A stretch of 64,000 bases of DNA from Flammulina velutipes. Lineage: Eukaryota; Basidiomycota; Agaricomycetes; Agaricales; Physalacriaceae. Shown one piece after another: positions 4,929-38,068 of the stretch (position 1 is the stretch's first letter; each line of letters starts with the position of its first letter). Below the pieces are notes generated by a model that saw nothing but the letters and a program-made list of their open reading frames with translations, was not told the DNA's origin and did no database searches. The stretch is from the NCBI GenBank assembly GCA_011800155.1, contig CM022376.1, positions 124,001-188,000 of the forward strand, in the 5' to 3' direction. Both the position numbers and the translations under genes were made by a program.

Positions 4929-5068
4929 GGGCGTAGGGTAAAGAGAAATGGAACATGTTCAACATGTTTTTATAGGGCAATCTTTGGTGTTGGGTTGTAT
5001 TAGTTTTCGTAGACTCTACAATCTAGATTAGATTTCGTGCGGCCTTAACTGGTTGTAACCGGCATAAA

Positions 5069-5695
5069 ACCAGATCTCCGAGTCTCGAGAATCGGACCGT
5101 TCAGACGCCCCCCTCGAGACTGTCTCGAGACTCGGATACCCCAAGATCTGGAGACTTCAGTCTCACAGTAGCCAGTAGATAGTATTGAATATACAAATGA
5201 TATTGATTCCTCGCTATATAACTACTGTATGGGGTACAACTCGAGACTCTAACCAAAAACTATCTACAATCCACTATCTCGAGACAATCTCGAGACAATC
5301 TCGAGACAATGCTCGAGACAATGCTCGAGACAATGCTCGGGTCAATGCTCGAGACAATGCTCGGGTCAATGCTCGAGCTAGTTCTCCATCAACTACTCGA
5401 GACAAACCCCGAGACCGTCCTGCGTTGTCTCGGGACAAAGCACCACCATGCGCCACACAGACCGCCACTACGTACTTACCTCAACCCACGTCAACGCTCC
5501 CTTTTCGTTAGCTATGTACCGTAAAATTATCCCTATTCATTTGGTTACCTTAGCGCTAAGATCTTGTTGAGGGAGGCATAATAAAAAAAGGGAGTGGCTA
5601 CCACGAAGGTAAGAGGAAAGAGGCAAAGGCCGGCACATGACTCCGTGTCGACTGCTTTGTGGCCGCAAATGTTGTACTCACCGGCACATTCAGCT
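5069..5695 (+). repeat. Left long terminal inverted repeat with a 12-bp tandem array
   Basis: This arm matches the reverse complement of 19898-20564, with small indels. From 5279 to 5396 it consists of roughly nine units of a 12-bp motif alternating between GCTCGAGACAAT and GCTCGGGTCAAT. Further CTCGAGAC copies lie at 5083-5130. The repeated palindrome CTCGAG is a plausible transposase-binding site. Open frames across the array (repeating SRAL/TRAL) are artefacts of the repeat. Confidence 0.85.
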
Positions 5696-5762
5696 GCCTT
5701 TGTTCAATAATCAATGCACACGCCACTGGTATCTAATCTAAGTAAATTTGAATATTATATTA

Positions 5763-8700
5763 TTACATTGCTTTATACCGGTGCTCTGCCTCTTCCAAGA
5801 GCTTCTTGCGCTTCTCCCAAAAAAGTGCTTCCACAGTATTTGGTTTCCCATTCCGCCGTACTGCTTCGTAAATGTCCATAGCATCCGTTTTGGCCAGCTT
5901 GGCTCTCAAAAGCAAGTCAGTCCTTCGAGCGAGCTCCTTGAAGAAACCAGCAGTCTTCCGCGCCTTTGCTCGGAATCCTCGTTCTGCTCGTTCATAAGTA
6001 CCTTTTGATAGCGATAGCCAGACTTCTTGGTAACGCTCAAAGCTGCGCAACGTCCTCAGCATCTCAACAATCTTCATCTCCCATTGTTCTCTCCAGCGTT
6101 CCATTTCCGCCTCATCCCGGAAAAACTGAACACGATTGGCTAATAAGGTGTTAGATGTGGCGCAAAGATGAGAGACACAGTTACTTACAATCATCCATCC
6201 ACTTGGCGTCATCCTTTGGCAGACCAGGTATTTCTGACCAGATGCATCCGTTTGAAGATTCTTTTGTCTCTTTATCCCGCTTACGCTTCTTGCCTGGCGA
6301 TGGTCCGGGCTTCTTACCTGTAGGATTAATTAGCACTCGTGATATCCTGTATTAAAGTACACATACCTTCCCGAAATTGCATCTGAGTCCCAATCTCCGC
6401 TCGCTGATGAGTATTAGATGGTGTACCGATCCCGCTATGCCCTCCTTGGTGTGTCGTTGAAAACAGTGCTGCCTCGGTCACCTTCGAATCTCCAACTTGG
6501 CGTGTTCCAGCAACATTCTTCCGCAAGGTATCCTCACGTCCTAGAGACTTCCACCAGTTGCTTTTACCGGGAGTGATTGATTCCTGAATCCGTCGATTGG
6601 TATTGTAGTCCTTCAATGTCTTGTCAAGCGAATGAGACATGGTCTGAAGCTGTTTTTGAGCGCGAGTCCTAGCTTTGGTTCCCTTGAGCTGCTTTTTCTT
6701 CCGTTGAGGAACTACACTGTATGCCGAACTAATCCTCCGTAGGTCAAGGTACGCCACATTGATCGCTCCCTGGCGAAGGTCATACTCCAACTGCAAGAGT
6801 GCCGGCGAGATACCCAAGCGCGAGCGTTCTTTCTGCGACCAAGCAGACGGCATGAAGAGTCTCTCGTCCTCCGGTTCTCCCACCATCTGCGGTAATGCGT
6901 CCAACGTCTGCGGTAAGACCTGCTTTTGTAGACGACGGAAATCAGTCAGTTGTTCACGCAAACGCTTGCGCTCAGCATGGAGACTTTTCTTTTCGGGCAT
7001 GCCTTCCCCGTTCGTCTCACGAGTTGCCCGCGCAGCTAGGGCTCGTCTGCATGCTCTCGCATAAGTCCCAAAAAAGCTGACAAGATAACTCAGGGCTTAC
7101 TGATCATGCTCGATACATATTCCAAGGTGAATGAATTTTCCTTCGTCGTCGGTAAACTTCTGAGCTTCGTGAGCTTTTCGTGCGACTGCAGACTTCGTAA
7201 GCAGGTTTTCTAACACCTCCTTCGCAGAGGGCACTACACATAATATATTAGTGCCTTTGACAATGGATAGAAGCTTGTAAACTTACGTGCAGCACTGCTC
7301 ATCCGATACCGACTCTCGCCGGCTGTGTTTGGCTTCGAATGTGGCCATCTCTTCCGCCATCCTGCAGTTTCCTCAGAGTACATTTCCGAAACTGCCACAT
7401 AATCGTCCAATTTAGCGAGATAAAGGTTGTAAGCCTCGTCGATGTCCTTGGCTAATTGCTCAGCTGTCGATGAGAGTTAGATAGGGAAATACGGTTCGAA
7501 GCTACGTACCAAGGCCACGCATTTTCTTGAAATTCCAGTCAGAATGATGTGTGTTGATCACTTCCTGCCGGTAGCCATTGTTCATCTGCGTTGTCTGGGG
7601 CCCAATGAGATTTGCCTCCGCCCAGTAATATTCTGCAGTCTCGCCGTGGAAGTGACCTGCGCAAGGAGTGTAGGAATACCCCCAGCAATATACACATCGA
7701 TCGGCGTGCCCCATAACATGACACTCGGGAACAATCTTGCCCGCCCGTTCCAGAAATGGTAGTAGGACCGTTAGTTCCTCCTTGGTGATGATACCGCTCT
7801 TTTGCATTGTCTTGAAGCGATCTAAGAGATGAATGTCGTATGCGCACATAATGTCGTAGGAGAACATGGCATAGAGGGCGCATAAACCTTTGTGATCTCC
7901 CCTCTTGCGGAGATCGATCAAACGTCGCAATACCATGAGCAAAGCATAGTCTGCATTCGGGAATCTAAAAGCTTGTCAGATAATGAGGGTACGATCCCAA
8001 GGTCTTACTTACTGTTCCCCGAACGGCAAATCCACGGAGGACAGGACAAGCACATGGCTACATTGGCAGTTCACTACTCCAGTAACTCTGAGGTTCTTGA
8101 ACTTCTTTCGATTCTGGTTATTGACAACCTTCAGATAGTCGCAGGTGGATTTCTACAATTAAATCAGACATTGGACGATGCACGACACATTGATAGAGTC
8201 ACTCACCGTCTGCGGGTTCGGTGAAGTCTTCAAGTAGTCGTTGTATTCGGAATCCAGAGGAAAGTAGGCGGAAGCACCCATCATAGAGATATCGTTAGGG
8301 TTCGTGTTTTTGGATGTCAGGTTCATGTGGTGGTTTCCGTCAAGAGTAACTTGTAATTGATTCAAATGTCTGCGTGGGATGATGAGCGAATGAAAGTTGT
8401 ATCAGCCAGACACGAACCTCATCTCTGGCCGGGTTACCACAATGCCCAGATCATTGAAACCTGGTTCAGGACACGCCGGACACCATAGGATCACGTTGTC
8501 TACTGGTCGATGAACAAGTACTTCACCGATTCCATGCGCCTGCCCGGAGATAATCTTTCCCCTCAACACTCTCCAGATACGCATAGCATCAGTAAATCTT
8601 TCAATTGTATCCTAAAATCCAGTCAGCATTGATCACACAACCATCCTGTTCCACTTACCCCCATATCTCCCGGGAACATGCCATCCGTTTTGCGGGTGAT

Positions 8701-9570
8701 AGTTGACATATAGTCATGAGCGTTCAACTTCCCCTCCATCTGTAGCAAATGAAACTCCTTCATCATTTCCAGAGTAAACGCGCTGACAGGCGCCTTCGCC
8801 GTCGCAGGGAACAATCCCGTCTGCATTAGTTGGCGAAGAATACCTTCGTTTGTCTGTGAACAGTTCGTCGTCTGCTCCCGGCACTGGCAAAACAAAGCGC
8901 GAGTTCGATGGATACCGTTCGAGTGGGTGATGGTGAATTTGACGGGCATTCGAGCCTTAGGGCATGGGTTACCGTGGTGGCCCAACTTGATGGAAAAGTC
9001 GGGCAAGACTTCGCTAAGATCGTGCTTGCGCATGTGTCCGAGGGTTGAATCGCCATGCATAGCCCAATGCAGAAAGTGTTGTCCTTCATGATTCGCAATG
9101 AAGCAGTGAGCGCAGGATGGTTTGTATTGCGCGCAGTCGAAGCACATCCACTCGGCGAGCCTGCCCTCCTTCGAATTACAATGGCTGCATTTCCGTCCAA
9201 AGCCGTTGTTCCAGTGTCGATCCATCAGCTCCTCCAGTAGCAATGTTTCCACTCCCTTGAAATCACCCAGTCGATCCAGGCGCTGCACAAGGTATGCTCA
9301 GTGGGTTCATCGTTTGTACGGCTGGCAACTTACCTTGGGTTTGTCGGGAATGGGGTTGGTTTGAGTAGTCGAAGCTGTCTGTGGGGGGGATGGTGTAGCG
9401 CCTGTTGTTGAAAATCCATCGAGGGATCCTGGAGTAGTATCCGTGGGGGCGAGATTATCTGTCGCATGGGATAATTCTTCTGGTGGCGCACTCGCAGCGC
9501 TCCATGCCGTTGTTGTCGAGTTGGCTGCATTTTCAGAGCGAAGTTTGTCTTTCTTAGTTTTTTTAGCCAT
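5763..9570 (-). CDS. KDZ-family transposase with N-terminal CxC2 cysteine cluster
   Basis: This is the transposase of the 15.5-kb element, read in about nine exons. The N-terminus is a Ser/Thr/Pro-rich tail. Next comes a CxC2-type cysteine cluster (9288-8690): CSHC, CFDC, CAHC, then CQCREQ with a further Cys. A second cysteine pair follows (CPAC, about 8480). The KDZ catalytic core shows LDGNHHMNL (about 8330), SYDIMCAYD (about 7860), HVMGH, and the block HGETAEYYWAEAN (about 7640), consistent with the acidic catalytic residues of this family. The C-terminal part is helical and basic (LPSAW/ERSRLGIS-type block near 6830). No stop or frameshift was noticed in the blocks I translated, so it may be active. 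The ATG at 9568-9570 starts a clean reading frame. The gene reads toward the left terminal repeat, ending 68 bp from it. The inner repeat at 9831-9932 lies upstream. Confidence 0.88.
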
Positions 9571-9830
9571 GGCGAGGGGGAGTGGACACTAATAGATGAA
9601 TAGAAGGCATACTGTGCTAATGTAGTATATAAAAAAGTCTGTGCTGTGGCCCGCAGAACAAAAACGATGCCATGACGATAGGGCCCGTGCAGAATCATTC
9701 CAACAAAAAGATATCAAGGGAATCCTGGAAAAGTGTTAGCTTGTACTGCACAGGAGCATCGATAGAGCTGCCTACCAATACGTGCCATGAAGGAAATGGA
9801 CAAGTCGAGAGGTCACGTGCACAGCGCCCT

Positions 9831-9932
9831 CAGCCTGACTAAGTAGGCCCAAATGTTGTAAATCCGACGTGGTCGGAACAACATTTTGCGGTACTTACCC
9901 AAGCGGGCAAGATTTGCCCACGCTTTCCCTCT
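9831..9932 (+). promoter_or_regulatory. Inner inverted repeat, left copy (nested palindromes)
   Basis: These 102 bp match the reverse complement of 15928-16029 with a single mismatch. They contain two compound hairpins. One is AAATGTTGT...ACAACATTT enclosing CCGAC-GTG-GTCGG (9851-9886). The other is GGGCAA-GAT-TTGCCC (about 9904-9919). A CACGTG hexamer lies just outside in both copies. This copy is about 260 bp upstream of the transposase start. The sequence similarity stops sharply at both edges, which suggests selection on a binding or promoter module rather than ordinary duplication. Alternatively, the two are the termini of a 6.2-kb nested element, but I found no matching target duplication. 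Confidence 0.75.
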
Positions 9933-10196
9933 CTGCCTGCAACTACCGCGTCGGACTACTTCACTGGTGAGTGCACTCAGTTTTCTTCCACACTTCTCTG
10001 AAAAATTTACAGTACAGCCATGAAATAACGAAACCGCCTGATTGGACGCCACATCACTTCGATTGACGCGACCTACGCCTCATCGACATTCCTCGCGTCG
10101 CTTCAGCCGATTCTATCTGGGTAGCTAGGAGGAAATCAAGGTCGCACATGTGGGTAGAAGACATTGATTACAAGGGATAATAATCGACCGTAATTA

Positions 10197-11094
10197 CTAG
10201 CGTCCGCCAAAAATTCCAGCCGTCGTCAGTTTCGCTTCAAACGAGTCTAAGAACATCGGAATTGGCATTGAGAAGGGCAACGAATCGTGCAGCTCTCTTA
10301 TGCGGTTGTTGGCTTTCCGACAGTCCCTAAAGTTGACATTGGTTGAGTGGCAGATGAGAAATGCGCCATATACGTAGAAGGGAGTGTCATCCTTCAGCGG
10401 AACAAACAAGGCGAGGGATGGAAGATATACTTTCATCCGGCGGTCCAACTGTGGTAAGGATGTCGGTACAACACATCTCTCGCGCAGCTTGATGACGAAC
10501 TCCTGAGGCGCCGAATGCTCGTTCTAGAGGGTGTATGGGTCGACGTCGGGTGGGTAACGAGCATCACATACCGTATAAACTAGCATGACTGTCTCATCGT
10601 GGACTGTGGATGTCGATGGGCTATTTTTGGGACGCCTGGCCTCAGTACCTAGTGAATAGTGAGATAAATCATATCAATGGAATTGTCTGTACTTACCAGT
10701 ATCCGTCGCAGAAAAGGTGACATGCCTCGCTTCTTGGGCCCTTCGCCGCTCACCGATACGGTGATTGGTGGAGTCCCAGATACGACGCTGATTTAAAAGC
10801 GCGGTTTTCTTACTCTCAGGCATCTTCACAACGACGTTGACCTGACACCGTCGACACTGTATGAAGACTGGTAAGAATTGGTCTAATGTATTCAGTCCAA
10901 CGTACTGTAATAGTAGTATCTCCCAAGCGGCTATCGTCCAGGGTCCCATGAAGTGTTCTGATATTCAATTGGTGTTGAAGTCGTTGACATGGTTGTAGTG
11001 CCTTGTTCGTATCCAACTCTCTCTGCCATTGAGGGCGAGCTAGTTCCTTGGCAAACTGAGCTCGGACGTCGGTGGTGACACGCTCATCAGCCAT
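10197..11094 (-). CDS. Unrecognised cysteine-containing protein of the KDZ element
   Basis: Four exons splice cleanly on the minus strand to about 255 residues, starting at the ATG at 11092-11094 and ending with a TAG at 10197-10199. The introns are 48-49 bp and start GTACGT, GTAAGT and GTATGT. The N-terminal third is polar and helical. After the first intron the sequence CRRCQVNVVVKM suggests a metal-binding Cys pair, but no second CxxC pair is evident. A basic stretch (IGERRRAQEAR) follows. The last exon is more hydrophobic and ends in TTAGIFGGR. I recognise no family. It sits inside the inner repeat pair, upstream of and in the same direction as the transposase, so it is probably an accessory protein of the element. 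Confidence 0.65.
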
Positions 11095-11624
11095 GGTAGT
11101 ACGAGTTCACGCTCGTGGGGACAGACAAGTAAGTTTATATATATATATCGCTCAAAGGGCACAATGTTGTAGGCACGTATATACAATTAAGACACAACGT
11201 CAGGATCTGCCGGATCAATGCGTTCTCCCAGCGCTTCTTTGCTTTCTTGATCAATGATATCTGCTAAAATATGGTCGATGAATAGTCAATTCATCAATGC
11301 GACAACGCACATTGTGATTCCGTCAAGGCTGCCTTGGACAGAGACCAGACATTCTCCGCGGACTCTCCGTGTGTATGCACAGGAAAGTACCTACAGGCAA
11401 ATCAGTAACATATTTTCAACGCTGTGAATGGACGTACTGGTGGACGTACTGGTACATGCAGCAAGAGACGTGAGAATACTTGATGGATGTGTAACTGGTT
11501 GACATTGTTGGGGCGTTGGAATGAAGCCGCTACGTCGTTCAAATAGTACGAGAACACAATAGACACGGGCCAAGCTACTGAGTTCGGCACAAAAACAAAA
11601 GCATTCGGTCTATATTCGGCGGAA

Positions 11625-12177
11625 ATGATACCTCGTCACACTATGTCCAGCTTTCTATTGTCTAGTAGTACAATAGCCGCCGCCAGGGATGGAGTAGCGG
11701 ACCATCTCCACCTGAGGATGCGCATCCATCACTCACGCCTGCTGCAGGATCCTTTCCAGCAGAAGATCACCAAGCATTTTCATCAACTCGCACCCAAACG
11801 ACCCAAGTTGACGAGGGGTAATAGGACCGTAACTTTAGTATTCTATCGCGCTGTGAGTAATCAAAATACATTACTTATTCGTACTCTCACGCGATCCGTA
11901 GCAACATCGAAAGGTCTTCGTCGTACTGCGTGATGTGATGGCCCGCATTCGCTTATCAGACCATGCCATGGTCTTGTCAGCCGCCGGGGTGGGTCAAAGA
12001 CCACAGTTTCGCATCTTGAATATTTCAGGGAGCTCGTGTTGGTGGTCCAGTATCGGATGGCGTACCTTCTTCGACGTGCCTGACGACCCCAACCGTCCCG
12101 TCTTCTTTCATGCAACCAATGAGCCATTACCGCCAACGTGGATGGATGACGTTGAAGTTCATCTGAGCGTACTCTAG
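11625..12177 (+). CDS. Small unrecognised protein of the KDZ element
   Basis: Two exons join in phase across a 48-bp intron (GTGAGT...CGTAG, ending at 11901). They give about 168 residues if the ATG at 11625 is used, or fewer from the ATG at 11720. The second half includes VFVVLRDVMARIR and SSCWWSSIGWRTFFDVPDD, and ends in DDVEVHLSVL. No motif tells me a function. The 5' end is uncertain and an upstream exon is possible. The gene lies head-to-head with the cysteine-containing gene and directly upstream of the acidic-repeat gene. Confidence 0.5.
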
Positions 12178-12344
12178 AGTACTGTAGTATAGTCACCATG
12201 TACCGTCTGCAATTATGCGTCCTCCCCATCCTTTTGTTTTATTGTTCTATCGTTTGGGTCCCTTTCCGCAATGGTCTTCGCGCGATATATTGTTTGAGAG
12301 GATTTAAAAAGACTGAAGACACCTCTCAACATTCTATCCTCCTC

Positions 12345-13466
12345 ATGCCTCAGCTTGTCAAGAAAGGCCTCGTCCTTCGCCTCCCAGAGAAAGCCTCTTT
12401 CGGACAGAGACTCCTTTTTGCCTTTTGCCCTCCGCCTACTATCACAGCTGAGGAATACGAAAAGGCTATGCAATGTGGCGACAGGAATCGCCATCACGTG
12501 CATCACACGAATGAAAATGGGCCCAACACTGGCGATCAAAGTATTCAGGTAGGCCATCCACCTCTTTCAACACGACGACACCATAATCATCACTATCTAG
12601 TGTCTACCAAAAAATCGCTCCCAAAGCATCCCCTGCGTGCCCCGGATACTCTCTGTACCACTGACCCAAGCACAGCGCTCCTTTCTGGAAGTGAAGCTGG
12701 CGGAGATCACTGCTCTGGTTATCAGGATTGAGGCCCTCGGGAAAACGTGCGCAGCCGAAGATAAGACCTGGACTCGCACACGCCAGACAGTCAGGAGCGA
12801 AGAAATAGATTTGACAATCCAGCAAATATGTCAATGTAGGTCGTACAATTCCTTCTTTGATCCAGACCTGCTGACGCCACGAAAGATCCCATCGAGCAGC
12901 GTTTGGAAAAAGAGTCTGATCTAACACGGGCTGGCCAGGCGCTTAAAGATGCCTCCAGACGTGGAAACCAAACTCACAAAGAGTATGAGCATTGCTTGCA
13001 ACGTATGTCTCCCTTCCTATCGTCTCGCTCGAAGCTGATTCTTCCCTAGGTTTGAAGGAGCTAGCAAACAAATTATCAAGAGGACTCGGGGAACATACCG
13101 ACGAAGACGAGGAACAAGAGGATGACGACGAAGAACGAGCGGACGATGACGAAGAACGAGAGGACGATGACGAAGAACGAGAGGACGATGACGAAGAACG
13201 AGAGGACGATGACGAGGACCCTCTCGCTGATGCTCGTTCCGTTAGTGAAGATATTGTGACCGGTGAAGGTATGTTCTGCCCTTCTAGCTGAGCCCAATTA
13301 GTACTCAGCACGCGCAGCTGCCCGCCATCGATCGGCTTCGGTCACATTTTTGGATGGAGCGGAGGCGGAAGCTGCCCAAGCACGGGCAACAGTCAAGCTA
13401 GCTAACAAGAAACGGGGTCATGACGATGTGGCGTCCTATGGATCCCGTAAGAAGTCAAAGGTCTGA
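12345..13466 (+). CDS. Acidic-repeat, coiled-coil nuclear-type protein of the KDZ element
   Basis: Five exons splice in frame. The N-terminal part from MPQLVKKG includes ITAEEYEKAMQ, then a helical segment with RSFLEVKLAEITALVIRIEAL and RLEKESDLTRAGQALKDA (predicted coiled coil). The fourth exon encodes an acidic tract at 13121-13219 made of nearly perfect 21-bp tandem units (DDDEERE). The last exon is basic and ends GSRKKSKV, a plausible nuclear localisation signal. Acidic-plus-basic layouts like this are common in histone-binding or chaperone-like proteins, but I recognise no named family, so that is only an analogy. The gene converges on the SPT5-like gene and the two 3' ends are close or overlapping. 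An upstream in-frame ATG exists at 12198, but the intervening residues look non-coding. Confidence 0.7.
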
Positions 13467-15905
13467 TATTTACTGTCGGATGGTAGCATAATAGTTGTAT
13501 GTATGTAAATGTCCCCTTGTCAGCTATCGCCGAGTAGCACGTTCTCGAAGTATACTCGCTAACCGTGTGTTGACCCGTCGTGAGGTTGATGTTTCCCAAC
13601 CCAGAATCATGTCCGTCGCCAGGATTTCCAGCACTGGACCAATATCCAAGTCTTCTTCCCCCTCCCCACGGATCGATACCCACCTTGACGGTCCAAATAA
13701 CACCATTAGAACCATTATCAGCTTCCTTCCATTGGACGGGGCGTACATGCTGCCCGGCGTGTTCACCTTGATGGATGAGAAATCTACCGAAATCGTTCTT
13801 GGTGGGATGCTTGACAGAGATTTCGGAGAGGTCAACGGCGATGCTTTGCTTGTAGTGCTCCCGCATAATCAGTCGCTGCCCATCTTGAACTTCTTGCCAA
13901 ACACGATGTTCCCTACTCTTGATTTTAACGCGTATGGAAAGCCCCAGAAGTCGCTTGTCGAGTAGCCAATGAGCGGGAGGAGGAGTAGGTGAGCGTTGCC
14001 GTGATAAAACATCGTCATCAAACCACAGATGACCTGGAGGGCCAGAATCGTGGGGGTTCCAGGCTGGGGAGATGGAACCAGGACTGCCAACAGGTACTGG
14101 TGTCGAAGGGCGGGGCGGTGATATGGCGGGGATGAGCTTAGGTGCACATAGATCAAAGCAGTCGTACTTGACCCAGGGGAGAGCAAATGGATGCTCAGGG
14201 CCGTACGAATCTACCCGAATCTGGACTTTTTCACCAGTATCCGCAACCACAATACCGGTGTGTGCTTTGAATTCCCCACGGATGATAAGTACGTGTTTCT
14301 TCAGCCACCGGCTGCGCGGCTGAACAGCGTCCGATGAAGGAAGCATGTCTTGCAGAGGGGTGGTAATACTAGGTAGCGAGGGAAGCTCGACGAGAGGAGA
14401 GGGAATGAGACGAAGTAGATTGACATGGACATTATGCCACTGTCACGGTATCGTAAATGAAAATGCAGCGACAGAAGGGTATAGAAAATTACCTCCGTTT
14501 GATTGCCACAACCCGTCAAGACGTTGGCAGTATTTTCTGATAAGCGTTCAACGATGCCGTCGCCAATGCCATGAATAGCAACGTGGTCCCCAACATTAAA
14601 GAGTTTCCTGAGAAGAGGTGGGTAGACCACGATCAACTCTTTGGTTTCCTCGAGCTCGACAACCAGCGAGGGGGCGGTTTCTCGTATCCATCCCATCTTG
14701 TCGCATTCTACTCGGACATGCTCGTCCTTTTCGAACGACCATTCAGTTGCCACCGGCAATGTGTCTAGAATGGCCTGCGACAATAAAGGATGACGGGAGA
14801 GCTGGAAGGCAGTGGCGGTGGCTGAAGGAATATCCGTCGATGGAGATAGATTGTGAAGCTGGAGAGAAAGGACGAGCAGGCCAGATTCAAACGAAAGTCC
14901 GTTCCAGGAGAGGTTCACAATGTCGCCAGCTCCCTCGATGTCGGCCATAGGAACGCGTGTAATATCCAATAGAGCGGCATCTGGTCGTTCGCCAGTCTGC
15001 AATTTTCGAGGTGGGGCTGCACTGAACTCCAGATATTCGAGACGCGGCACAACGAGTACCGCGAAATGACCGGGCGTTACCTCTCGAGCTATATAACCAA
15101 CATCTAGATGGTATAAACCTGGCGCCTTGAGTTCAACCCAATCACCGACATCCAGACAGACTGCGCCGCCTTGTTTTAATGTTCGACGATTTTCCTCGAT
15201 AGGTACAGCATGGAGTACTGGTGCGCCTTTCGAGCGAATGATCCAGGGCATAACGGACCAGGCAGGTGACCAAGTCGAGGAGGCTGGATGATCAGCCTCT
15301 AGATAGATCCATCCCGGAATGTGGTCGTGAGCGAAGGCGCTTGCTAGGCCAGGTAGTTGACCGGGTGTGGCTGAAACCTCTAGAAGGCGCATCAGGAGGT
15401 CGTGTTCGTGATTGCGCTAAATGAAAGTAAGGTTGTTGAGCCATCTACAGGCATGTTGGGAGCGTACCAAACATTTAAGTCGCCACAAGGTTGTCATGGC
15501 TTTCTCCTGACCCAAAGCCTCGTCGTCGTAGTCGTGCTTCGACGTAGCGCGAGCCCTAGCACGCTCAAGAAATGCTTGTATTATCTCCTGAGGGTGGTCA
15601 TCAGGTGGTTCCAGAAGGTGGGACTGCACCGTGGCGGTGATGGTTTCACTGTCATCAAAGAGGTCGTCTCCTGGGATGCTCGTTGGTCCTCAAGTCGGAT
15701 AGCCTCTCAGTCGCTTACCAGGTATGTCCTCCCCGTCTGTTTCTACTTCTGACTCGTTCGCCACAGATGCTTCAAGGTCAACAAAGAGGCGCGCGCGTTT
15801 CCGTGGCGGCTACAATTAAATTCAGTAATTACATTCGATTGTACAACCGGTTGATAATACACTGGCGTCCCCTACATCTCAGAGTGGTAAAATACTTACT
15901 TGCAT
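13402..15905 (-). CDS. SPT5-like transcription elongation factor (NGN-KOW) carried by the KDZ element
   Basis: SPT5 with SPT4 binds RNA polymerase II and controls elongation. Here a short exon with the ATG at 15903-15905 is spliced to a basic segment (PPRKRARLF), then an acidic segment (VETDGED...DDLFDDSE). Next comes an NGN-like domain: LWRLKCLRNHEHDLL, HIPGWIYLEADHP, APVLHAVPIEE. A KOW-type segment follows directly (DWVELKAPGLYHLDVGYI...VVPRLEY), in the same order as in eukaryotic SPT5. More KOW-like segments occur: FNVGDHVAIHGIGDGIV, and after a roughly 180-bp intron LIIRGEFKAHTGIVVADTG, then FLIHQGEHAGQHVRPVQW near the end. The usual C-terminal heptad-like repeats are absent. The 3' end is uncertain (stop at about 13402, or earlier by splicing). 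Its start lies 23 bp from the inner repeat at 15928, suggesting that repeat serves as its promoter. It is probably a diverged paralogue, not the cell's main SPT5. Confidence 0.78.
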
Positions 15906-15927
15906 GCTTGGTCGTCGTTCGCAGCGA

Positions 15928-16029
15928 AGAGGGAAAGCGTGGGCAAATCTTGCCCGCTTGGGTAAGTACCGCAAAATGTTGTTCCGACCACGTCGGATTT
16001 ACAACATTTTGGCCTACTTAGTCAGGCTG
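15928..16029 (-). promoter_or_regulatory. Inner inverted repeat, right copy (nested palindromes)
   Basis: This is the reverse-complement copy of 9831-9932, with one mismatch. It lies between the divergent SPT5-like gene (starting at 15905, leftward) and the AT-hook gene (starting at 16241, rightward), so it could act as a bidirectional promoter. The same nested palindromes and an adjacent CACGTG (about 16040) are present. Together with the left copy it could coordinate expression of transposase and accessory genes, or bind the transposase. Confidence 0.75.
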
Positions 16030-16240
16030 TGCCAAGTTGTCACGTGATTTTATCCTTGCCCTCTTCCGTCATGTCCTCTTGGCCTTTGCTTCAAAGAGGT
16101 CAGTCGCATTCAAAGAGCACCTCCGATGCATTGACGATACGTCGTAGACAATACAATGACAACACATTGTTGCATTGTTCAACGATTTCTCAATAAATTG
16201 TTCGATATCTTTTTTGGATGGCTATCTTCCTCGTCTCGCC

Positions 16241-18659
16241 ATGTCTGGCGCAAGGGCTAAAGCCACGAAACCCGGAACACGATTCAAGTTCAGCGAGGCG
16301 ACTACCAATGCCTTCGAGAGGGAGGAGGCAAATTATTTTGCTTTGTGGCGCAGCCAAAACCCCGCAGGAGTCAAATATGGTGATCTACCCAAAGCCCAGC
16401 GAGACAGCCTGACCAATGGCCGGTGGGAGGCCGTAAATAGGCTTATCAAACTATCGTGCGTACAGGAGGACATCGTGAACTCAGAAGGAACCGTGGATGA
16501 ATGGAAAATCGTGCGCCTACCAGATATTCAGTTTATAGGCTACTAACACTCTATCAGGCATTCATGAAACGTTTTACTCGCAGGCATGAGAAGCTTGTGA
16601 AGCCGTCCACAGCTCCTGTCCCCGCCATTCCTCCCAAGATTCTCGACCGACTAGTCGACGGATTATTGGACACGACATCGGGGCGCAAGCTCTTCCGAGA
16701 GAAAGAAGCCGCCTCTATCGATCAACGCCGGGCCGAAATACAAGGGAGAGACGGTGTTACCGACGCTTCCATCGGTGCAAGAGCAGTTGCTGAGGCCCAA
16801 TTGTGGGCAGATCTTACGGAGGAACGAAGAGTTTGGTACCACAACGCAGCCCAGAGCCATAATGAAGGGTGCGTCGTGCCACCTTCTTACAGACTCCTCT
16901 CTAACTCTTGTCAGGAGCCATGCGGATTTGGCTGATTTATTAGCGCAACTGACGGGGAGCATACGCAAGCGCTATGATCCCTGTCTGTTGACCCTCGTCT
17001 GCACGGTAGCCGACTCGTCTGGCCAAGCACAAAGCATCGTGTAAGTCCCTTCTATGCAGTGGATGATGCGTCGACTAACACAGGTGCAGAGTGAACAGCG
17101 TCCCCGACAATATCGACTCGTCCACGGGTACGATCCAACATGCACTGGAAGAACGCCTGCATTGTTCTATCGCTGTCATTGCCAACGAAAAGGCCAAGGA
17201 GGTTTTCAAAAGTGCGTCTCTGCGCGTCAACACTAGAAGCCACTAATAATTATCTTAGGTCTACAACAAGGCGAACCAGTCCCTAGATTCCTAGGTGAGG
17301 CGAACGAGATGGATTCTTCCTTGTCGTTTGCCATTGGGGAAGTTGCGGAGTACTTGAACGCAGTGTGGGGTAAGTACTAGTTAATGGCATTCTGGGCTAC
17401 CTAATAATATACGTTTAGCCCACACCTTTGGCGAACAAGCCATTCCTTGGTCCAATATCGAAGATTACTTCGACAAAGAGAAATGGGCTTTCCCCGGAGG
17501 TTTGAAGGACCCAATGTTGTATGATTCCTGGGGCGCCCTATCTCCTATGCTCGCATATCTTCGCGCGCGTTGTGGCCCTTTCGCCATTCCTGCATTCGAG
17601 TTCTCTAGTCAGCGCGCGCCATCACACGATACCTCATACGATTCTATTCCGTGTTTTATCTCAAACGTCTCGGAAAAGAACTCAACGTTGAGGGAAGCGC
17701 TCGGCGAGGTGCGCGACTTCCTTGCAGTTCTCTGGGGTATGTGCCTTGTAACTCTCGGAATGATATTGCTCTAAACGTTGACATAGTACACGCGTCTTTG
17801 GAGGGCGACATCCATTGGGACGACATCGACAGCTTCTATGATACTACACGATGGTCTTTTCCCGGTGGCGCAACGGATCCCACAGTAGCTTGCAAGTCTT
17901 GGGCAAGCCTCAGAGAATATCTGGATTTCCTTCGCGCCAACTGCGGCCCAGAAGTGCTCAATCGCTTCCATTTTAACACCCGATTACCCAGACTCAGCGA
18001 ACATCTAGACGAGAACGACCCAAAAACCCCTTCGCAGAGCTCTTTTTCCGAGCACGCCACTGTAGAGGAGGATGGGAATGGCTTCGACGAGCCAGAAGAC
18101 GCTGAACGTTCATGCGACGAAATGGATGTGGACATCGAAGATCTTTTCAATAATGGGACTTACATTGGCCATGACCGCAAGTCCGACACGAGTAGCGATG
18201 ATAGCGAACCGGAGGAGCCAGTCAACGACGCTGCCGAACCAGAGATCGTTGAACCTGGTGTCACCGAGCGAGAGTACGAGGAACCCAAGACAGGTGGACG
18301 GAAACGGAAGCACGAGCCACCCATCCCAGAGGTCAAAGAGTACTACGAGGAACCTCCCAAAAAGGCGAAAAGGTGCATTTCCTTTTGTTTGGCAGAACAC
18401 TTCTGACCATGCTCATCAGACGACCCGGTAGACCAAAGACCATGGTTGCCCCAGCAACCATACCTGATCCTGTTGAAAGGAAAGGCAGAAAGAAAGCCTC
18501 ACACACCACGAAAATGTATGTGTCTGACGTCGTTTTCAAACTTAACTAACGCAGTATCGTAGTAATGGGGCGCGATATGCGGAAACGACATCGCCGCCTC
18601 GTCATTTCGTCCCCAAAGTACTGGAGACTCAATTGCGGAATAGGGCCAGCGCCAAGTAA
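16241..18659 (+). CDS. AT-hook protein with internally duplicated module, KDZ-element cargo
   Basis: About eight exons start at ATG 16241 (MSGARAKATKPG) and end at TAA 18657-18659. The N-terminal region is helical and charged (ANYFALWRSQNP, LWADLTEERRVWYHNAAQ), loosely HMG-box-like. Two copies of a module of about 55 residues follow in separate exons: one with WSNIEDYFDKEKWAFPGG and LRARCGP (from about 17420), the other with WDDIDSFYDTTRWSFPGG and LRANCGP (from about 17790). The C-terminal third is strongly acidic, then basic, with KRRPGRPKT formed across an intron, a canonical AT-hook that binds the minor groove of AT-rich DNA. The protein is therefore likely nuclear and DNA-binding. I recognise no named family for the duplicated module. 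It lies about 210 bp downstream of the right inner repeat. Confidence 0.72.
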
Positions 18660-18745
18660 GCTTGAGGTTTTATTGTTTTCTCTGTTTTATTGTTAGCATG
18701 ATGTATAAAATAGAGTAGTCGGAATGGTGATATCATAGCATTAGC

Positions 18746-19830
18746 ATGGTGGAGAAATCCCCAAACGTTCTACTTCTCGAAGACATTCTGAAGACTCAGT
18801 ACGGGAAAGCGGCTTTGCGTAGCACATTGAAATGTGGTCTATGTGGCGGTAATAGTATTGCCTTCTCTGTGAACATGGGTGTACGGAATCCGCAAGATTT
18901 TGCCAAATGCACCTTCGCGGTATGATATCTACATTATACTATGACCTTTCATTAAGCAATTTTACAGTGCGCTCAGTGTCGGAAGCCAATTCGTACTGAC
19001 GTGCCGAAGGCTGAAGAACGCGAAGCCATTCGTGAGCAGTGGAAGCAAGAAGTGAAGGCACGAGGTGAGCCTTGATCCTAGTTGCCACGCTCGTCATGCT
19101 AAATAATATCAAGGTATCGCCATTCGCTATACGACGACGTTACAAGCGCATAGGTCTGACATTTCCGACGACGACGACGAAGCTGGAGATGAAGGCGAAG
19201 CTGGAGACGAAAGCGGGCCTGGAGGGGACGCTAATCGAGCTGACGACATTATTCAAGTCCAATATTTCTGCACAGTGAGTACCCTTTCTCTAGGTTGGAG
19301 CCTATAACTGAGAGAATGTTGATTAGGAGGAGGCAATTTCATTCAACCATCCTATTACAAAAGGAGTGTGCACTCTCTCGAAAATCCCGTTACTGGAGGG
19401 ATGCCGGCGTATCAAGGTCTATACTCCGTCTTATCGGGAGTTCATATCAATGCAAACGACTAATCAGCACGTCTACGTCGAAGGCGCAACGTTGATCTGT
19501 ATGGACCATTCAATGAACGCCACTGACTGTCGGGGCCTAGATCAGATGCTTGCCGACCTGCATGCTGCTCTACCTTACAAGCTCAATGCACCATCTATCG
19601 CTGGGAAGGTTGACGAGCCCGAAGAGAAGGGATCAGAGGTGGACTCCGACTCAGAGATTGAATTCATCGACTCCAATGTCCCACCAACACCGCCGAAGAC
19701 CCCAGCTAAAGGGAAAGGAAAACAGGTAGCAGGACCAGATATCGAATTCAGGCGCGACGGGAAGAAACGGGAGGCATCTGGTGATCCTGAGGGAGCTGTA
19801 GCACCGGTGAAGAATCGTCGCAGATTTTAG
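18746..19830 (+). CDS. Zinc-ribbon-like (CxxC...CxxC) protein, KDZ-element cargo
   Basis: Four exons splice in phase from ATG 18746 to TAG 19828-19830. Cys30-Gly-Leu-Cys33 and Cys59-Ala-Gln-Cys62 (with Cys55 between) form a probable zinc ribbon at the N-terminus. The middle has a poly-acidic run (SDDDDEAGDEGEAGDE), then a globular part with KIPLLEGCRRIKVYTP and a Cys-His pair (ICMDHS). The C-terminus has EIEFIDSNVPPTPPKTP and basic ends (KNRRRF). I recognise no specific family. A CxxC ribbon with an acidic linker suggests nucleic-acid or protein contacts in the nucleus. The stop codon is only about 70 bp from the inner edge of the right terminal repeat, mirroring how the transposase gene abuts the left repeat. 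Confidence 0.7.
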
Positions 19831-19897
19831 TGTACGCCACAACCATTACACATGTATCAATGAGCGGGGACGAACAAAGAACATTTTTGGCCGAATG

Positions 19898-20564
19898 TGC
19901 CGGTGAGTACAACATTTGCCACCACAAAGCAGTCGACACGAGATCATGTGCCGGCCTTTGCCTCTTTCCTCTTACCTTCATGGCAGCCACTCCCTCTTTT
20001 CACTATGTGACCTCCCTCGACGAAACCTCAGCGCAAATGTAGCCACATAAGTAGGAATGATTGGACGGTACGTAGCTAACGAAACGGGGGCGTTGATGTG
20101 GGTTGAGGTAGGTAGGTAGTGACAGTCTGTGTGGCGCATGGTGGTGCTCTGTCCCGAGACAATGCAGAACTGTCTCGGGATTGTCTCGGGATTGTCTCGG
20201 GATTGTCTCGAGCCTTGTCCCGAGCATTATCTCGAGCATTGACCCGAGCATTATCTCGAGCATTGACCCGAGCATTGTCTCGAGCATTGACCCGAGCATT
20301 GTCTCGAGCATTGTCTCGAGCATTGACCCGAGCATTGTCTCGAGATTGTCTCGAGATAGTGGATTGGAGATAGTTTTTGGTTAGAGTCTCGAGTTGTACC
20401 CCATACAGTAGTTATATAGCGAGGAATCAATATCATTTGTATATTCAATACTATCTACTGGCTACTGTGAGACTGAAGTCTCCAGATCTTGGGGTATCCG
20501 AGTCTCGAGACAGTCTCGAGGGGGGCGTCTGAACGGCCCATATCTCGAGACTCGGAGATCTGGT
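19898..20564 (-). repeat. Right long terminal inverted repeat with a 12-bp tandem array
   Basis: This is the reverse-complement counterpart of 5069-5695. The array (about 20163-20360) is longer than on the left, with more alternating CTCGAGACAATG and CTCGGGTCAATG units, so copy number differs between ends. The outer block CTCGAGACTCGGAGATCTGG ends at 20564. Beyond it lies sequence rich in GGTTA/TAACC variants. Confidence 0.85.
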
Positions 20565-20775
20565 TCTTGAACCGGCTACAGTCGGTTATGACAAATATCG
20601 GTTATGACTGGTTGAAGCTGATTTTTCACCGGTTACGGAATTTTTTTCCCAGAGCCTAACCCATAACCGTAACTGGTTTCTGGGTGTAACTGGTTATTTT
20701 TCGGACGGTTTAAATTACGGTTAGGTTAGGTTAAGTTACAGATTTTAACTGGTTAGTGCAACCTAACCTTGACAC
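20565..20775. other. GGTTA/TAACC-rich degenerate repeat flanking the KDZ element
   Basis: About 200 bp hold many variants of GGTTATG, CCGGTTAC, TAACTGGTT and GGTTAGGTTAGGTT. A short counterpart (TAACTGGTTGTAACCGG) lies just outside the left end at 5047-5062. This may be the outermost tip of the element, longer on this side, or the preferred insertion target. It is not the fungal telomere repeat TTAGGG. Confidence 0.4.
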
Positions 20776-20810
20776 CCTACTAATATGTCTCATTTTATGC
20801 GTTCACCCAG

Positions 20811-23075
20811 GCATCTATCATCACCTTGCCAAGCTCAGAGCATTGCGCAGACCGGTATGTGACCGTCGCCCGTCATTTCCATCGTACCAAGAATTTATAC
20901 AGATGCCAACGCCATATATGTGTACCAGACGTCTCCAACATCCCTTCACTCAACAATACACGCTTCGCTGAGCTCCTCGATACGCACATTCCTCCCGAAC
21001 CCGCCGATCTTCCTTCGCTAAAAGCTGGCCTGCAGAGCGCACGCGCTATTTCCGCCGCCATCGATGAAGCCATCACAGCTACCCAACTCGCTCTGGAAGA
21101 AATGCAAAGCGCCAAGACTACCGCCACAACTGCCATCATCCAGCATCTGACGATCCTCGACCTGTTCAGTTCCGTCCCAGACGACATCCTCTTCACCATA
21201 TTCCAATGGTCGTCCTCCTCAGATCAGAAAGGAATAGATTCCCTCTCCTCTTCCCGCGCACCGTGGACGCTGTCTCAAGTGCTGGCGCACTCTCGCCATT
21301 TCCTCCCCTCGTCTCTGGTCAGATATGGACATCACAGCGCGCAGCATCGACACTCCTCACGCCAAAGGAATGTTCACCTCCAAACTCGACTTACGCCTCC
21401 TCCGCTCCGCACAATACCCCCTTCACGTCACTCTCAGCGCCCACATGACGTGTTCATCGACGAATGCTTCGGTTTACCGCTCAATGTACTGGGTGGGTTA
21501 TCTGCCATGCCGGGGCTATCTGCCATGCCGAGGGTTAACTGCCATTTCCCACGGGTTATCTGCCAGCCCCGGCGGTCCGCTCTCCCGACGAATGTTGAGG
21601 CTCTCGCGTCGCACGAATTGAGCTGCAGATGGGCCAATTACTGTGCATTACCATTAAATACTAATTACAATGAAGGTGTAACAACAATATCCGAGCCTCC
21701 CAGGACCCAAGAATTGCCAAAAAAAAATTGTAAATACTGCAATAGAATTAATCCTCCGCCACCTCACAGCCCGTGCCTCCCCCACATCTCCTCTCTTCAT
21801 GTCTCATCCCCCCGTTGATCCTCATACACCGCTTCCATACTCACTCTCATACCGCCACCAGCAGCTTGATCAAGTCACAATAGAAGGGATGGGGGCGTCC
21901 AAAGAAGAGGCTCGTCGAGGACGTCAATCATGTAAGGAAGTATTGTATTTATCAATGTTACGGGAAGAACTGTGGGAGAGTACTCAGATGAGCAATATCT
22001 TGATTTGCTCACAGAATGAAATGTGTCGTCCCATACACTACAAGCGGGAAATGCTGCGGATGCAGTGACATGGATCAAGGAAGTATGTGCTCAGTGAAGG
22101 GCAAGCCTACTAGTGTAAAACCACGACGGCGTTGAAATGTACATGGACGTTCACTGAGGAGCGCAATTGAGAGTGCCGCCGGCAATGACCGATTTGGATT
22201 TCTCTCAATTCTTTCCTTTTTTTATTCTTTTTCTTTCGTTTCCCTTCCAAGATACCCAGTACATTGAGCGGAAAACCAATGCTTCCCCCTCATCCAACCC
22301 ACCCTCCACCCCTAAACCTCACAATCCACAACGCTGCCTTTGCTCTCCAAGCCGATATCAGATTCTAGAACAATTGCACCTCAATTTTTGGGACACAGTC
22401 CCAGGTGATCTCCCGTCTACGTGGGATACCCCAAACATCCGCACCCTCTGGCGACGTCGATATCCCATGGGAACGAATCACCAACTATACCTGCGACGAG
22501 AATGGCATCTGCAATCTCACCCTCTCGCTGGACGTAATAATCATCGAGCGCGCCTTGGGAAGGTTCAACGAGTCCGGCGTCTCTCTCCCATTGTCCCTAC
22601 CGACCGTCCACTCCATAGCAATACAACTGCCAGGACATCTCTCTCCTCTCCGCATGCTTCACCCTCCCATCACTAACAACCCTCACCCTCAAAATACTGC
22701 ACCTCCAACCTCCACGTCCAAAACCTCTCCATGTTCTTCGTAGGAGTCTCATCCTTCAGCTCCGTCAAACCCATCGACAAACAAAACATAACATCCTTCC
22801 TCGCGAATTGCCCTTCGGTCACAGCGCTCCCGAGGGAGAGGTCCTGGAGGCGAGACGGCCCTGCCAAAGCTGACGAGTCTGATTCAGACGATGTGGAACC
22901 ACCCAGAGGGGATCGTGAAACGCTCGGTGTGAGGAAGGGAACGTGGCGCGCATATCAGAGCTCAGGATCGTGGAGCGCCGCCGGATTGGATGGAGGCACC
23001 GCTCGCAACGGAGGATGTAGGAGAGCGGTTTGTGGAAAGGTGGAGGTTCTTAACGTGTTTGATAATGTCTTTTGA
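20811..23075 (+). pseudogene. F-box/LRR-type gene, broken by frameshifts and a MITE insertion
   Basis: The translated blocks align by eye with the intact F-box gene at 40839-42486. Shared blocks are VPDVSNIP, IPPEPADLPSLKAGLQSAR, the F-box segment SVPDDILFTIFQWSSSSD, and SSRAPWTLS. The frame shifts soon after PWTLS, with CWRTLAISSPRLWSDMDI in another frame. The reading is then cut at FIDECF by the 807-bp MITE at 21471-22277. Downstream pieces (DIPWERITNYTCDENGICNL, ITSFLANCPSVTALPR) continue the homology with more frameshifts. The first identifiable exon, after a CCCAG acceptor at 20810, encodes ASIITLPSSEHCAD. F-box proteins link substrates to SCF cullin ligases, but this copy should make no complete protein. 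Confidence 0.75.
21471..22277. mobile_element. Non-autonomous hAT-type element (MITE), copy 1, with 8-bp target duplication
   Basis: This is an 807-bp insert. Its ends are inverted repeats of about 24 bp: GGTTTACCGCTCAATGTACT at the left and the complement of GGTTTTCCGCTCAATGTACT at the right. It is flanked by the identical 8-mer AATGCTTC at 21463-21470 and 22278-22285. Eight-bp duplications are the hallmark of hAT-type insertion. It has no transposase. Near the left end the motif ATCTGCCA recurs several times, a likely subterminal binding motif. It interrupts the F-box pseudogene. Copy 2 lies at 46291-47089 in the opposite orientation. Confidence 0.9.
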
Positions 23076-36400: not shown

Positions 36401-38068
36401 ATCGTTTCTGGTTCGGCCGACAAGACAGTACGCATCTGGAATATGGCGAGTGGAGAAGAGCTCCGGAAGATGGACGCTCATACAGATCGAGTCAACTCTG
36501 TCGCATTCTCCCGCGATGGGCGATGTGTCGTCTCCGGCTCCGATGATAGGACTGTGCGTATCTGGGACTCGGAGACTGGTCTGGAGATATGGAAGATGGA
36601 AGGTCACACAGATGAAGTACGCTCCATCGCTATCTCGCTGGACGGCAAACGCATCGCCTCTGGTTCACGGGATAAAACTGTCCGTGTGTGGGATGCAGAG
36701 AGGGGTAAAGAGCTGAGAAGGATGGATGGACATACAGATTCTGTGTTCTCTGTCGCTTTCTCCAGCGATGGCGATCGTGTCGTCTCCGGTTCGAGGGATG
36801 AGACTGCTCGGATATGGGATGTGGAGACAGGGCAGCAGCACAAGAAGATGGATGGCCACGCAGGCGGCGTCCACTCCGTCATGTTCCTCCACGATGGGCG
36901 CGTTGTGGCTGGTTCGTTAGACAACAAAGTGCGCATCTGGGACGCGGAGACGAATCTAGAGCTAAAGAAGATGGATGGCCACACGAATCTCGTTACCGCT
37001 ATCGCATTCTCTCGTGACGGCAGACACATCATCTCTGGATCAGACGACAGAACCATTCGCGTCTGGGACATGGAGATTGGAGAGCAGCTCAAGCGGATCG
37101 ATAGTCACTCAAGCAGGATAGTCTCGCTCTCATTCTCGCATGATGCGCGTATCCTCTCTGGCTCAATGGACGAGACCGTGCGCCACTGGGATGCAGATGA
37201 GGGAGTGGAGCTCAAGAGGGTGGATGGCGGTGCATACAAAGTCTCCTGCATCGCGTTCTCGTCTGATGGTGTACGTGCTGTCTCTGGATCAAACGACGGC
37301 ACTATGTACATCTGGGATGCAGAGACCGGACAGAAGATCAAGACGATGCATGGACACACACGAGGAGTTGGCGCAGTTGCATTCTCCCCCGACGGGAGAC
37401 ATGTGGTCTCTGGCTCTAATGACAAAAATGTGCATGTCTGGGACGCAGAAACCGGAGAAAAGCTCAGTAGGATGGAGGGCCACACCAATCATGTGTCTTC
37501 TGTTTCGTTCTCGCACAATGGCCGAGTTGCCTCTGGATCGACAGATCAGACTGTGCGTATATGGAACGCGGAGAGAGGGCTCGAACTCCAGAAGATGGGT
37601 GGTGACATTGGCAAAGTGAACTCGGTCGCATTCTCTCACGACGGGGAACATGTAGTCTCTGGTTCAGCGGACAATGCCGTTCGCATCTGGGACGTGGGGA
37701 CGGGAGATATGTTAAAGAAGATGGATGGTCACACCGACATTGTCTTCTCCGTTTTGTTCTCACCCGATGACAGACACATTGTCTCTGGGTCGTTTGACAA
37801 AACATTGCGCATCTGGGACGCAAGATCTACTGCTCAGATGTTATGGAAGACTGACCCAACAGGTTGGCTTCTCAGCAAGGATTCCACTCGTAGGCGCTTG
37901 ATGTGGTTTCCCTCTGAGTTTCTCCCCACTTTGCGCACGCCTGACTGTATACATGTAATTTCTGTCCGAGGATTCACTACGGTAGATTTTATGACGGCGA
38001 ATATGGGGGAAGATTGGTCGAAGTGTTACGTAGATCCTTATATCACAACTCCAGGAGATTATGAATAA
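33444..38068 (+). CDS. NACHT-WD40 STAND (NLR-like) protein
   Basis: STAND proteins are signal-transduction NTPases; in fungi NACHT-WD40 members act in self/non-self recognition. About seven exons start at MKKVTKKLGAAVTKK. The N-terminal 200 or so residues are helical (VMKDNTAETARLIERID, FFQGARNAADLKDKNDRIKG), typical of basidiomycete STAND N-termini. The NACHT domain has Walker A GHAGSGKST (about 34390), Walker B VIVVDALDEND (about 34700) and a sensor-like FLMTSRSD. A helical linker follows to about 35790, then an intron. The last exon encodes 14 WD40 units (36050-37840) of about 42 residues, with repeated core SVAFSHDG..VVSGS.D.TVRIWDAETG. This suffices for two seven-bladed propellers. The frame is open throughout the large exons, so the gene looks intact. 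High similarity between repeats suggests recent shuffling. TAA at 38066-38068. Confidence 0.92.

Follow-up and report, generated by a model that had tools for sequence, protein, structure and literature searches.

The question raised by this locus is whether a KDZ transposase gene and the other genes enclosed with it by long inverted ends are carried as one mobile unit, and what such a gene set could do for the element that carries it. The locus lies in a stretch of 64,000 nucleotides of Flammulina velutipes (contig CM022376.1 of assembly GCA_011800155.1, here C9:124001-188000), hereafter the window, within a genome of 38.1 Mb in 23 contigs. The element under study is referred to as E1 and two diverged relatives in the same genome as E2 and E3; coordinates without a contig name are those of the window. 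E1 consists of the KDZ transposase gene and six others, which encode an SPT5-like protein, an AT-hook/HMG-like protein, an acidic coiled-coil protein, a two-CxxC protein, a diverged partner of the latter and a protein of 136 amino acids (aa). The number of six given in a preliminary description of the locus stands, with the inclusion of the 136-aa gene that it had overlooked. A multigene KDZ element with a relative of SPT5 is real, mobile and one of three diverged ones in this genome.

The limits of E1 were fixed by comparison with its other copies at 5064-20569 (15,506 bp). An exact 7-bp target-site duplication, AACCGGC, read directly, stands on both sides (5057-5063 on the left and 20570-20576 on the right), as is characteristic of a KDZ element inserted as a unit; E1 inserted as one 15.5-kb unit with a 7-bp target duplication. 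The left inverted end (5064-5694, forward strand) has the outer terminus 5'-ATAAAACCAGATCT and the right one (19890-20569, reverse strand) the outer terminus ...GGTTCTTG-3'; within the right end, units of 12 bp are repeated in tandem at 20178-20369. The ends are ~630-680 bp long and identical at 589 of 632 bases (93%) in an end-to-end alignment, the identity being 98% between 5068-5299 and 20334-20565, 84% between 5405-5576 and 20011-20182, and 91% between 5577-5694 and 19890-20007. Inverted ends of about 630-670 bp had been described earlier and are real; the limits given with them, 5069-20564, each lie 5 bp inside the true termini.

When the left end of E1 was searched against the whole genome, at least 71 matches were obtained, which on grouping by hand correspond to E1 and at least 14 short loci of ~1.0-1.4 kb, each with both ends inverted. 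Duplications of 7 bp were present in all nine E1-type copies examined (E1 and eight of the at least 14 short copies); a search for other copies with the same ends had been proposed in the preliminary description. The short copies carry no genes and have moved. E1 and the eight short copies have in common the left terminus 5'-ATAAAACCAGATCT and the right terminus ...AGATCTGGTTCTTG-3', with the duplication immediately outside. Since the left and right termini are unlike each other, the ends are polar, and this polarity is kept in the short copies.

The transposase gene (5763-9570, reverse strand) is predicted to encode 1117 aa in ten exons (9334-9570, 8659-9282, 8418-8611, 8207-8369, 8013-8152, 7510-7964, 7287-7463, 7101-7233, 6363-7046 and 5763-6309). 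The gene structures of E1 are splice predictions, and in these models the main exons are open, in agreement with the earlier report that they lack stops. A Pfam scan, made like the count of conserved positions below on an earlier model with one wrong exon, confirmed the transposase as a KDZ protein, with the KDZ domain (PF18758, 90.1 bits against a cut-off of 26.6, E 2.2e-25) and CxC2 (PF18803, 90.8 bits against 27, E 8e-26) both above cut-off. The founding description of KDZ is reportedly that of Iyer (2014). Used as a query of public proteins, the E1 transposase gave 99 matches, each of them annotated with CxC2, KDZ or both, and E1-type transposases are therefore common in mushrooms. The closest was that of Paramarasmius palmivorus P0003 (47% identity over 98% of the query), followed by those of Favolaschia and Mycena at 34-38%. 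Within the F. velutipes genome, 85 CxC2 matches were found, and thus the lineage with the helper genes described here accounts for only a small share of them. A tree of KDZ half-domains was inferred from 20 sequences, namely E1, E2 and 18 distinct others (27 of 30 fetched loci had a long enough match; one with a stop was dropped and identical ones were merged). In this tree, in which E3 was not included, E1 groups with E2 with a support of 0.917, on long branches.

The preliminary description had named the lack of a second copy with both matching ends and cargo as what would refute it and, taken at its word, this is the outcome. No such copy was seen in the genome by protein searches with the SPT5-like, AT-hook/HMG-like and two-CxxC proteins of E1, in which matches above 90% identity occurred only within E1. 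The 14-kb interior of E1, used as a DNA query, returned only a 124-bp match in one short copy and missed its own locus too; it was therefore given no weight, and it is from the protein searches that a second full copy is taken to be absent. A single full copy with ends only 93% alike would suit a decayed relic, immobile and kept as a single copy. Against this stand the open exons, the intact 7-bp duplication and the retention of 121 of 146 nearly invariant transposase positions, as counted against 33 relatives on the earlier, partly wrong model; a relic is considered less likely than not.

The purpose of the second-copy search is answered by E2 and E3, two diverged elements with the same core genes. 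E2 (C8:525944-542711, 16,768 bp) was reached through an SPT5-like match at C8:536 kb and has a KDZ transposase and inverted repeats (83.8% over 351 aligned positions). Exact 7-bp duplications were found in five of five E2-type copies with both ends read, of which two share flanks, leaving four independent cases. The transposases of E1 and E2 are 24% identical (E 6e-60) and their SPT5-like proteins 23% (E 4e-23; z-score 42 by shuffling); the coiled-coil proteins are 40% identical over 86 residues (E 5e-13; z 21), and the small 136-aa proteins give a z of 24. Two further E2 genes, N1 and N2, were tried as relatives of E1 proteins and rejected, with z at most 1.7 in three pairs.

E3 spans ~C8:1264955-1281836 (~16.9 kb). 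Its SPT5-like gene (C8:1272785-1275007) encodes a protein 61% identical to that of E2. Relatives of the small, coiled-coil and HMG proteins were located around it by a search with four E2 proteins joined into one query, and a CxC2 and KDZ match adjoins; the homology of the E2 and E3 HMG proteins is supported by the same search. With the spacing in E1 and E2 as a guide, the sites of the E3 ends were predicted, and 1.2 kb was inspected at each. The predicted places show an inverted match of 47 bp (83%) and a common flank of 8 bp, CTCGGCAC, of which 7 or 8 bp may be the duplication. As a blind search of 75 x 80 positions expects ~0.09 matches of 8 bp, the duplication is likely, not certain.

Four core genes, for the KDZ transposase, the SPT5-like, the coiled-coil and the 136-aa protein, are common to the three elements. 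Their order differs: transposase(-), two-CxxC partner(-), small(+), coiled-coil(+), SPT5-like(-), HMG-like(+) and two-CxxC(+) in E1; transposase(-), N1(-), N2(-), SPT5-like(+), small(+), coiled-coil(+) and HMG(+) in E2; and HMG(-), coiled-coil(-), SPT5-like(+), small(+) and transposase(+) in E3. The conservation of gene order and content that was to be looked for holds for content in the core and fails for order. The same four or five genes in varied order and orientation point to long joint travel and not to a recent duplication of one block; judged from the sequences, the gene set is old and travels together. The proposal that it forms one travelling unit is borne out by the 7-bp duplication, the short copies, and E2 and E3 with the core genes inside their own ends, and E1 almost certainly moves as a unit. 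In the same genome, matches to the small and coiled-coil proteins occur only in E1, E2 and E3 (E up to 0.001). An E2 HMG relative stands alone at C1:2432267-2433641, apart from the listed KDZ genes, and is perhaps a relic or a domesticated copy.

The additional genes might instead be passengers, host genes captured by chance by an ordinary KDZ transposon in which the transposase alone matters. Gene capture by fungal transposons is known for TET/JBP, according to the available portion of one account (PMC12730594), and E1 and E2 each hold unshared genes (the two-CxxC pair in E1; N1 and N2 in E2). The recurrence of four genes in three elements, in varied orders and with transposases down to 24% identity between E1 and E2, is difficult to reconcile with chance capture. 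So is the 136-aa protein, which is 60-70% identical between the elements despite saturated synonymous sites, and this explanation is regarded as quite unlikely.

The gene for the 136-aa protein (11718-12177, forward strand) has two exons (11718-11852 and 11902-12177), separated by an intron whose position is identical in E1, E2 and E3. It contains the one stretch lying between their other genes in which E1 and E2 can still be aligned as DNA (11745-12122). Protein identity is 60% for E1-E2, 67% for E1-E3 and 70% for E2-E3, the E3 sequence being incomplete at its end. The proportions of synonymous differences (pS) are, respectively, 0.83, 0.82 and 0.73, and those of nonsynonymous differences (pN) 0.27, 0.25 and 0.18. 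With synonymous sites near saturation and pN low, the protein is under strong purifying selection, and, as it changes more slowly than the adjoining transposase, it is marked as central. It matched no Pfam family at E up to 10 and no solved sequence better than E 1, and by this lack of a Pfam match is classed as an undescribed family. An invariant PFQQ[KR]ITKHF is present at residues 12-21 in all three elements; the form QxxITxHF, found in three of three small proteins, never arose when the E1 protein was shuffled 20,000 times. The PCNA-interacting box is Q-x-x-[ILM]-x-x-aromatic-aromatic, and a DNMT1-like form of it is QxxIxxHF, the letters of which a text search found in no paper. On this motif, binding of the 136-aa protein to PCNA is a credible proposal with somewhat less than an even chance of being correct.

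A different origin for part of the gene set is suggested by an internal repeat of 102 bp, with one arm at 9831-9932 (reverse strand) upstream of the transposase gene and the other, inverted and 99% identical, at 15928-16029 (forward strand), in the interval separating the SPT5-like from the AT-hook/HMG-like gene and upstream of the latter. The arms enclose exactly the SPT5-like, coiled-coil and small-protein genes, as though a second element had brought these into a smaller KDZ element. Such a composite is hardly credible: the arms have no flanking target duplication and lie upstream of two outward-pointing genes, and the same genes occur in E3 and in E2; the latter has at the corresponding place, apart from its ends, no inverted repeat found but one of 16 bp (E = 0.34). 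A nested element within 9831-16029 was accordingly rejected, there being no duplication at the arms and no other copy of the 6.2-kb inner block found in the genome. The 102-bp repeat, of which no further copies were found in the genome, is probably a shared promoter sequence. CACGTG occurs just outside both arms.

The SPT5-like gene (13402-15905, reverse strand; exons 15900-15905, 15719-15809, 15468-15670, 14493-15416 and 13402-14439) is predicted to encode 753 aa. Spt5-NGN (PF03439) scores 23.4 bits in the E1 protein against a cut-off of 22.4 and is not reported for the E2 protein; KOW scores 24.0 bits in E2 against 22.3, and KOW5_SPT5 16.8 bits in E1 against 27. A four-row profile of the SPT5-like proteins matches canonical SPT5 in the public collection (E 6.4e-10), and hhalign aligned query residues 123-382 with canonical SPT5 residues 174-436 (probability 96.9%, E 1.7e-10). 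Public protein searches of 7,994 candidates each gave at least one match with the protein and at least two with the profile, and the best solved sequences were SPT5 chains (E 0.008 and 0.033). A Foldseek search with the first of two exon models gave 16 matches with E up to 0.001, only to chains of RNA polymerase II (Pol II) elongation complexes, most of them presumably SPT5 to judge from their chain letters; with TM-scores of 0.12-0.26 and root mean square deviations of 14-22 Å, these add little beyond the sequence and are weak support. The profile matches make the SPT5-like gene a relative of genuine SPT5, and the host's own SPT5 is separate (C1:2523203-2525204, found with canonical SPT5).

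SPT5-like matches were found at nine loci in the genome, which are E1, E2, E3, three more full-size genes (C3:2.27 Mb, C9:1.78 Mb and C8:0.34 Mb) and three weak matches (C3:3.11 Mb, C5:0.21 Mb and C12:1.98 Mb). The C3 gene (C3:2273750-2275654) has no listed KDZ gene nearby and is accompanied by a weak TET/JBP-like open reading frame (ORF) at C3:2271278-2271868 (PF12851 E 0.019, far below cut-off); those within C9:1771001-1791000 and C8:326001-346000 have no KDZ gene near among the matches listed. By eye, neighbouring ORFs at the C3 and C9 loci have motifs in common, such as STKAYG and IWDDF..EWDPP, with no Pfam match, and the two loci are perhaps another mobile element. The weak matches at C3:3113011 and C5:207329 each lie ~8 kb from a short E1-type copy, and these loci look like a duplicated segment. 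At C12:1971882-1982145, a KDZ/CxC2 match and the weak SPT5-like match are ~8 kb apart, possibly marking a fourth element.

The NGN-KOW part of SPT5 is polymerase-facing, and plants have SPT5-like silencing factors. That the SPT5-like gene functions as a helper in transcription is close to an even proposition, leaning slightly against. It could instead encode an anti-silencing decoy that takes the place of host SPT5 or obstructs a complex for RNA silencing or methylation, in place of promoting elongation. Related Kyakuja elements carry TET/JBP dioxygenases which, in the available text of PMC12730594, are read as anti-silencing and thought to counter DNA methylation, and the C3 gene with the weak TET/JBP-like ORF lies outside KDZ elements. 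No sequence feature pointing to silencing partners was seen, and the part aligned with SPT5 is the NGN-KOW part; such a decoy is deemed unlikely.

The ends of each element are further marked by a palindromic 8-mer of its own. In E1, TCTCGAGA occurs nine times in the ends (five in the outer 700 bp on the left and four on the right) and not in the interior; in E2, GTCCGGAC occurs six times in the ends and not in the interior; and in E3, GTTGCAAC occurs eight times in the ends, with no exact occurrence in the flank portions examined. In 300 Markov resamples each, the commonest palindrome reached at most 3, 2 and 2 (E1, E2 and E3), and seven short E1 copies keep 5-10 copies of TCTCGAGA each. Plant Spm has subterminal repeats, and by analogy with these the palindromes may be binding sites for a dimeric element protein.

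The explanation favoured here, with fair but not strong confidence, is that E1 is an autonomous cut-and-paste KDZ DNA transposon from a multigene lineage, with helpers aimed at transcription and perhaps replication. The transposase would act on the long ends, where the element-specific palindromes would serve as binding sites, such that each element recognises no ends but its own and those of its short copies. The role proposed for the SPT5 relative is to bind Pol II as a dedicated factor for elongation or antitermination and so to maintain transcription of the element genes in the face of host silencing. The 136-aa protein might couple transposition to replication or repair through its PCNA-box-like motif, and the basic AT-hook/HMG-like and coiled-coil proteins might help assemble the ends. 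The role in transposition or chromatin control suggested in the preliminary description is likewise conjectural. A bolder form, a transposon lineage with its own Pol II elongation factor and a new clamp-binding adaptor, plugging into host transcription elongation and replication, with palindrome arrays that keep families from cross-mobilising, is put forward as a speculation unlikely to hold in full.

Several observations weigh against this explanation. E1 is single-copy, so its present activity is unproven, and it is known here from the sequence of one genome alone. The homology of the E1 and E2 HMG proteins is not supported (z 1.6 and 0.9 by shuffling), and the E1 HMG-like gene is thus the counterpart of that of E2 by position and composition only. 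A query of the genome with canonical SPT5 did not recover the SPT5-like genes, which are therefore distant relatives; AlphaFold models of two SPT5-like exons were poor (mean pLDDT 42.8 and 29.9). Six SPT5-like loci lie outside recognised KDZ elements, C12 alone having a KDZ/CxC2 match within 10 kb among the matches listed. As to the PCNA box, His stands in the motif at a position that is aromatic in the usual box, so that the strict pattern is found in none of the three proteins; the looser pattern, which they do fit, arises in 535 of 20,000 shuffles (2.7%), and the motif may be conserved merely since the whole protein is.

The coiled-coil or acidic-repeat protein (12345-13466, forward strand) is predicted to have 314 aa, of which residues 64-148 are conserved in E2 (z 21.3). 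The AT-hook/HMG-like protein (16241-18549, forward strand; predicted 629 aa) has an internal duplicated segment (z 23.5); HMG_box (PF00505) matches the E2 protein below cut-off (E 0.023) and does not match the E1 protein. The two-CxxC, zinc-ribbon-like protein (18746-19830, forward strand; predicted 311 aa) had no match outside E1 in the own-genome protein search, and its candidacy as SPT4 was rejected, Pfam returning only zf-NOSIP (E 0.13). Its diverged partner (9961-10949, reverse strand) is related to it with a z of 17.5 against 500 shuffles; the conserved part is 10200-10523 and the rest of the model is uncertain. An RNA gene in 9700-13500 was also rejected, the three Rfam matches being far below gathering scores, and no tRNA was found in 5000-20700.

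Elsewhere in the window, 21471-22277 and 46291-47089 form an inverted pair 24 kb apart, 79% alike over 837 aligned positions, of which 21471-21818 falls in an ORF of 344 aa (20784-21818) that is F-box-like by eye. Two adjoining long ORFs at 34217-38068 resemble, by eye, a NACHT-type NTPase and a WD40 repeat protein. A direct repeat, 71-88% alike, is present at 53277-53715 and 55070-55496, ~1.78 kb apart.

Transposon anti-silencing enzymes (TET/JBP) are already known, but in the open-licence literature no report of a transposon carrying an SPT5 relative and no paper joining Spt5 and KDZ was found. If the proposal is true, a core elongation factor now serves as the tool of a transposon, and how large DNA transposons keep long genes expressed in silenced chromatin becomes testable. 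With three element families, each of which has short copies or an end code of its own, this one genome also provides a system for studying who mobilises whom.

Among known systems, the TET-bearing Kyakuja elements of Agaricomycetes, in the available text of Kojima 2025 (PMC12730594), resemble E1 and E2 in the KDZ transposase, the 7-bp duplications, the host group and the presence of an additional gene that presumably affects host transposon control. They differ in carrying TET/JBP, which was not seen among the element proteins scanned with Pfam; the cargo of E1 and E2 includes the SPT5 relative and the coiled-coil and 136-aa genes. Kyakuja are described there as lacking inverted repeats, which are ~630-680 bp in E1, ~350 bp in E2 and, as detected, 47 bp in E3. 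Of the 5'-CA..TG-3' termini of Kyakuja, E1 and E2 have the right TG-3' and differ on the left (5'-AT and 5'-CT, respectively), and E3 would have 5'-CA..AG-3' if its duplication is taken as CTCGGCA. Zisupton and Dileera, from the same portion of that account, are likewise of the KDZ superfamily, the former with inverted repeats, but have 8-bp target duplications in place of the 7 bp of the E1 and E2 types. KDZ1-KDZ3 of Cryptococcus, in the available sections of PMC12810828, are similarly large (~9-11 kb), with inverted repeats, a CxC-KDZ transposase and demonstrated movement; they differ in having CxC1 and not CxC2, repeats of 139-241 bp and duplications of 8 bp (4-8 bp in KDZ2/3), and those sections do not mention SPT5. 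For the 136-aa protein, the systems that it may work like are Tn7, whose TnsE contacts the bacterial sliding clamp (excerpt of PMC9690074), and pogo, to whose transposase a PCNA box is ascribed (excerpt of PMC4103810), both being transposon-encoded proteins that reach a sliding clamp; the 136-aa protein is known here by its motif alone, and no sequence relation to them is claimed. For the SPT5 relative, RfaH and the plasmid-borne ActX, bacterial specialised paralogues of NusG/Spt5 (in the part of PMC7819879 consulted), offer a working analogy, not a family membership; a transposon SPT5 would be the counterpart of such plasmid- or operon-bound NusG paralogues.

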